Positions 31,046 through 31,906 of a DNA stretch of 64,000 nt are shown here, in pieces. This stretch comes from Blattabacterium cuenoti (GTDB lineage: Bacteria; Bacteroidota; Bacteroidia; Flavobacteriales; Blattabacteriaceae). The notes below the pieces were generated by a model, which was given only the letters and a program-made list of their open reading frames with translations, made no database searches and was not told the DNA's origin. The translations under genes and the position numbers were made by a program. The stretch spans positions 189,854 through 253,853 of the forward strand of contig NZ_CP059225.1 of NCBI RefSeq assembly GCF_014251655.1, read 5' to 3'. The first letter of the stretch is position 1, and each line of letters starts with the position of its first letter.

Positions 31046-31804
31046 ATGAAAATTATTAGCTACAATATAAATGGAATTAGATCTGGAATAAATAAAGGGT
31101 TGTTTGATTGGATAAAGATGAACAATCCAGATATTTTATGTTTGCAAGAAATAAAAGCTTTTCAAGAACAGATAAATACTAATATTTTTGATCAATTAGG
31201 ATATAATCATTATTGGTTTCCTTCCAATAGAAAAGGATATAGTGGGGTAGGAATCTTGTGTAAAAAAAAACCTATTCATGTAGAATATGGAATAGGTTTG
31301 AATTCTATTGATATAGAAGGAAGAGTTTTACGTATAGATCTAAAAAAAATATCTATAATTAGTCTTTATCTTCCTTCAGGAAATAATATAAAAAAAAGAT
31401 TAGGATTTAAATTTTTTTTTATGAAAGAATTTTTTTCACATATAAAAAAAATAAAAAATAAATTTAATAATCTCATTATTTGTGGAGATTACAACATTTG
31501 TCATCGAGAAATAGATATTTATGATCCTATTAAAAACAAAGAAACTTCAGGGTTTTTACCAGAAGAAAGAAAGTGGATGACACATTTTTTAGATTTAGGG
31601 TTTATAGATAGTTTTAGAAATTTTATAAAAGAAGGGAATCATTATAGTTGGTGGAGTTACCGTTATAATGCTAGAAAAAATAATAGAGGATGGAGAATTG
31701 ATTATGCTATGGTAAGTAATTCTTTAAAAAAGAAGATAAAAAAATCCTATCTTTTACCAGATGTAAAATATTCTGATCATTGTCCTGTAGTTCTAGAAAT
31801 CTGA
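31046..31804 (+). CDS. xth: Exodeoxyribonuclease III
   Basis: AP endonuclease and 3'-5' exonuclease for base excision repair. 252 residues. Family blocks are MKIISYNINGIRSGINKG, DILCLQEIKA, LIICGDYNICHREIDI (metal and catalytic residues) and the C-terminal WRIDYAMVS and YSDHCPVVLEI with the catalytic Asp-His. The last codons lie in a 28-bp tandem duplication (31773-31828) that changes the reading frame: without it the frame would run to a stop at 31839-31841, inside the tRNA-Lys gene. Catalytic residues precede the changed end, so the enzyme is probably active. Confidence 0.95.
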   Translation: MKIISYNINGIRSGINKGLFDWIKMNNPDILCLQEIKAFQEQINTNIFDQLGYNHYWFPSNRKGYSGVGILCKKKPIHVEYGIGLNSIDIEGRVLRIDLKKISIISLYLPSGNNIKKRLGFKFFFMKEFFSHIKKIKNKFNNLIICGDYNICHREIDIYDPIKNKETSGFLPEERKWMTHFLDLGFIDSFRNFIKEGNHYSWWSYRYNARKNNRGWRIDYAMVSNSLKKKIKKSYLLPDVKYSDHCPVVLEI

Positions 31805-31828
31805 TCATTGTCCTTTAGTTCTAGAAAT
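31773..31828 (+). repeat. 28-bp tandem duplication at the 3' end of xth
   Basis: Copy 1 at 31773-31800 and copy 2 at 31801-31828 are identical at 27 of 28 positions (G versus T at the 15th). The repeat starts in the SDHCPVV codons of xth. Because 28 is not a multiple of three, the second copy is read in another frame, which supplies the present TGA stop at 31802-31804. The near identity suggests a recent event. Confidence 0.93.
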
Positions 31829-31833
31829 TTATA

Positions 31834-31906
31834 TGACCTGACTGGGATTCGAACCCAGGACCCTTACATTAAAAGTGTAATGCTCTACCAGCTGAGCTAT
31901 CAGGTC
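31834..31906 (-). tRNA. tRNA-Lys (anticodon TTT)
   Basis: 73-nt cloverleaf on the minus strand. The acceptor arms GACCTGA and TCAGGTC pair fully, the D arm is AGCTCAGCTGGTAGAGC, the anticodon stem TTACA/TGTAA closes the loop CTTTTAA with anticodon TTT, and the T arm is CTGGGTTCGAATCCCAG. The discriminator is A and no CCA is encoded. The gene is convergent with xth, 29 bp from its stop. Identity is very secure from the fold. Confidence 0.96.

Follow-up and report, generated by a model that had tools for sequence, protein, structure and literature searches.

Short tandem duplications that shift a reading frame, arising through replication slippage or misalignment, are a general class of bacterial mutation. 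In the open genome papers on Blattabacterium (an obligate symbiont of cockroaches) that were searched, xth, indels and tandem duplication go unmentioned, and a general literature search returned nothing specific. A locus in Blattabacterium cuenoti (GCF_014251655.1) is like this class in four respects: the copies are adjacent and near-identical, the unit is tens of bp long, its length is not a multiple of 3, and a stop codon falls at the junction. The locus lies within a window of 64,000 nucleotides, the whole stretch of DNA that was analysed, which corresponds to positions 189,854 to 253,853 of NZ_CP059225.1. Here hisD-hisG, on the minus strand, are followed by xth on the plus strand, tRNA-Lys on the minus strand, and aroK and tilS on the plus strand; hisD and tilS are what we take two of these genes to be, naming them from their ORF sequences. 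The features are as follows, with positions counted within the window.

31046 to 31804, plus strand: xth, exodeoxyribonuclease III / AP endonuclease, an intact ORF of 252 aa
31772 to 31799, plus strand: copy 1 of the 28-bp duplication, TCTGATCATTGTCCTGTAGTTCTAGAAA, coding (...SDHCPVVLE), with the ancestral G at 31787
31800 to 31827, plus strand: copy 2 of the 28-bp duplication, TCTGATCATTGTCCTTTAGTTCTAGAAA, with the derived T at 31815; its first 5 bases complete the ATC TGA of xth and the remainder is non-coding
31802 to 31804, plus strand: the present xth stop, TGA, produced by the copy junction
31834 to 31906, minus strand: tRNA-Lys(TTT), convergent with xth and unaltered (Rfam RF00005, 75.6 bits)
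31839 to 31841, plus strand: the stop of the single-copy frame (ATG ACC TGA), within the tRNA-Lys acceptor stem

The two direct copies abut in the assembled sequence and are identical at 27 of 28 positions, the sole difference being G31787/T31815, just as the original prediction had placed and read them; the match between them runs on by 1 further base. Their similarity is far above chance. With a TRF score of 107, the array tops the 118 rows obtained for the window (runner-up 74), and no other tandem pair in the 64 kb combines a period of 18-150 with an identity of 90% or more, while 20 Markov-random windows of equal size held one tandem pair in total, a weaker one (21 bp, 90%). A dispersed repeat or mobile element is ruled out, since the 28-mer is found nowhere else in the genome. 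The presence of the duplication in one genome only is what an artefact of assembly would produce, but such an origin is very improbable: both copies together span 56 bp, which should be shorter than common reads; the one-base difference falls in the non-coding copy, a detail that an assembler is unlikely to invent; and the genome was assembled as one contig of 621,203 bp.

For comparison, 48 congeners were used, one genome per species, and the end of xth and the start of tRNA-Lys were read in all 49 Blattabacterium genomes, the present one included. A tree built from xth (its end left out) and aroK places the genome G027 as sister, with support of 95/95 and a DNA identity of 86%. A second copy of the 28-mer is absent from all 48 congeners, this sister among them. 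Allowing 3 mismatches, the 28-mer matches once in 10 of the 48, each time at the xth end, and not at all in the other 38, whose sequences are more diverged. All ten single-copy matches carry G at the base equivalent to 31787/31815, and a Leu codon at the position of 31815 occurs in none of the congeners; these observations place the substitution in copy 2, as expected, copy 2 being the one that ceased coding. Because the sister lacks two copies, the duplication postdates the split between these lineages and, as judged from this comparison, it is derived and private to the present lineage. Thus, the relatives did not all carry both copies; instead, two are present here only, with none or one in each of the congeners, and the predicted status and derived state of the duplication hold.

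The event also looks recent relative to the sister split, as had been proposed. Divergence between the copies is 1/28, or 0.036, which is small against a dS to the sister of 0.42 for xth and 0.32 for aroK (~0.16-0.21 per branch), so the duplication probably falls late on the terminal branch, with the proviso that a date taken from one substitution carries a 95% Poisson range of ~0.001-0.2 per site, the upper end of which reaches the full age of the branch.

Deleting one copy in silico restores a frame that ends ...VVLEIYMT*, with its stop at 31839-31841. Two further claims, that the duplication gives xth a new stop by a frame change (the TGA at 31802-31804 arising at the junction) and that without it the frame would run into the tRNA-Lys acceptor stem, are thereby reproduced. 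The consequences for the protein are slight. Xth is a predicted AP endonuclease / 3'-5' exonuclease and a member of TIGR00633, which it matches with 293.6 bits (cut-off 99.05; E 1.3e-87) over model positions 1-254 of 255; it also matches PF03372. The alignment with 5j8n_A (E 3.6e-74) reaches the last residue, and the C-terminal SDH motif and the strand that follows it are present, ...SDHCPVVLEI aligning to the end with both of the solved Xth structures 5j8n and 3w2x. Counted from the Ser of SDH, the C-terminal end has 10 residues here, 11 to 21 in the congeners (mode 11) and mostly 12 in non-Blattabacterium relatives; it is thus one residue shorter than any other in the genus, and every family position is kept. 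Each of the 49 genomes has an intact xth, free of internal stops, and the dN/dS of the gene against the sister is ~0.25. Loss of function of Xth is rejected on the grounds of the complete TIGR00633 core and of the alignment with solved structures up to the last residue. Judged by these alignments, the protein is undamaged and has about one non-conserved residue fewer than the genus norm. The original prediction that Xth is shortened was correct in direction but overstated, the loss being 1 residue when set against the most frequent end among the species of the genus, and the TIGR00633 core being untouched. The significance it attached to the location in a DNA repair gene falls away, the protein being intact.

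The single-copy state has living counterparts. In 8 of the 48 congeners (L006, L011, L015, L019, L033, L038, L045 and L050), xth ends with the identical ATGACCTGA (ATG ACC TGA), 8 bp into the tRNA-Lys acceptor, and in a ninth (L008) it ends on the first TGA of tRNA-Lys. Since the overlap exists in eight congeners, the single-copy state deduced for the present genome is realistic. On the xth and aroK tree, the overlap state undergoes at least six changes, so that overlap evidently comes about readily and is tolerated. None of the 79 loci from non-Blattabacterium relatives contains a tRNA, so that, as far as seen, the question of overlap is confined to Blattabacterium. L033 (G021) and L034 (G045) are close species that agree in all 25 bases beyond tRNA-Lys but differ in their xth ends, with an 8-bp overlap in one and a 12-nt spacer in the other; judged from sequence, they form a second close pair with an apparent recent gain or loss of overlap.

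In the immediate relatives, the two genes are spaced. The sister has an xth stop of TAG and a spacer of 23 nt, G042 has TAA and 9 nt, and G024 and G016, near relatives as is G042, likewise show no overlap. It follows that an old stop and spacer would also have been deleted in the present lineage, either before or after the duplication. One may therefore reverse the order of events: a spaced ancestor like the sister would have acquired the duplication and with it a stop further upstream, after which the former stop and spacer would have been deleted as free sequence. The spacing in the sister and in G042 speaks for this order, as does the readiness with which spacer length changes within the genus. 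However, the later deletion must fit into the brief interval that followed the duplication (1/28 versus ~0.16-0.21 per branch), a late event leaving little time to remove an older spacer, and it must by chance have placed copy 2 in frame with ATGACCTGA. This order is thus rather unlikely; it concerns the sequence of events only, and not the duplication. Given a young duplication and a copy 2 that is in frame with ATGACCTGA, the order in which overlap came first is likely, being favoured by about two to one, and an overlap was likely present in this lineage just before the duplication. The claim that the duplication separated two overlapping genes therefore stands in part: the overlap is real in 8 of 48 congeners, but for this lineage it is deduced, with a sister that is spaced by 23 nt.

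The spacer between xth and tRNA-Lys is now 29 nt, the second longest among the 49 genomes, where it ranges from -8 to +51. Sequence has indeed been gained, but to present this as gain in a shrinking genome overstates the matter, as it amounts to 28 bp in a spacer that varies this widely in the genus. It is conceivable that selection favoured the duplication, through less conflict in convergent transcripts or in tRNA 3' processing, or through a hairpin between the two genes. Two TTCTAGAA palindromes can in fact pair, on either strand, in an 8 bp stem; however, this hairpin is hardly better than those of shuffled sequences (z -1.2 to -1.5, with 18-25 of 200 shuffles as good), and the overlap persists in eight species and arose repeatedly, and hence is well tolerated. 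A role for selection is consequently very unlikely. An Rfam search of the locus found the tRNA as the only RNA element, and a terminator or other RNA element arising from the duplication is ruled out by this result together with the near-random hairpin.

Taken together, these results make it very probable that a near-neutral 28-bp tandem duplication took place on the terminal branch, and likely that it ended a prior overlap of xth and tRNA-Lys. In this model, a single duplication, its 28 bp not divisible by 3, would have occurred on the branch to the present Blattabacterium, most likely by slipped or misaligned replication or by repair of the end-joining type, with an end homology of 1 base. 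Before it, xth most likely ended ...EIYMT* through ATGACCTGA, 8 bp over the 3' end of tRNA-Lys. The second copy would have shifted the frame, so that the TGA at the junction (GAA AT|C TGA) closes xth after the last family position, and copy 2 would have turned into spacer. The outcome would be near-neutral, with the whole enzyme kept and the convergent genes moved 29 bp apart, a normal spacing for the genus. The duplication is an ordinary event of low consequence. More tentatively, stops within the tRNA may be recurrently gained and lost as spacers erode, small tandem duplications offering one exit from a cycle of overlaps; that this locus is such an exit caught in the act is possible, but somewhat less probable than not.

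Such a locus offers a clean and roughly datable example of gene ends drifting in a compact symbiont genome, in which one duplication supplies both a stop codon and the spacer between convergent genes. More informative is the xth/tRNA-Lys overlap itself, which species of the genus have gained or lost on six or more occasions. The locus has no bearing on the loss of DNA repair, because Xth is intact in every genome examined.

Tandem gains were also surveyed in the 64 kb of the present genome and in 60 kb of the same region from each of four relatives, whose stretches held one 25-bp array, in the sister, and one low-complexity array. The latter, in G024 (L140:17404-17500), consists of AAAAAGAAC-like units and would be Lys/Asn-rich if coding. 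In these genomes, small tandem gains are among the changes that mutation normally supplies. The array of the sister, ~3 copies of 25 bp between glpF- and glpK-like genes (L134:806-880; G027:C1:190805-190879), resembles the present duplication in being a tandem gain of similar unit length in the same genus, but it differs in lying in an AT-rich intergenic stretch, with no visible change to a gene end. The eight overlap congeners have the same arrangement as that predicted for the single-copy sequence here; in them, however, the overlap is current, whereas in the present genome it is reconstructed and gone. Finally, unlike classical slippage between short direct repeats, the duplication has an end homology of 1 base only, and misaligned replication or repair of the end-joining type would therefore fit it better.
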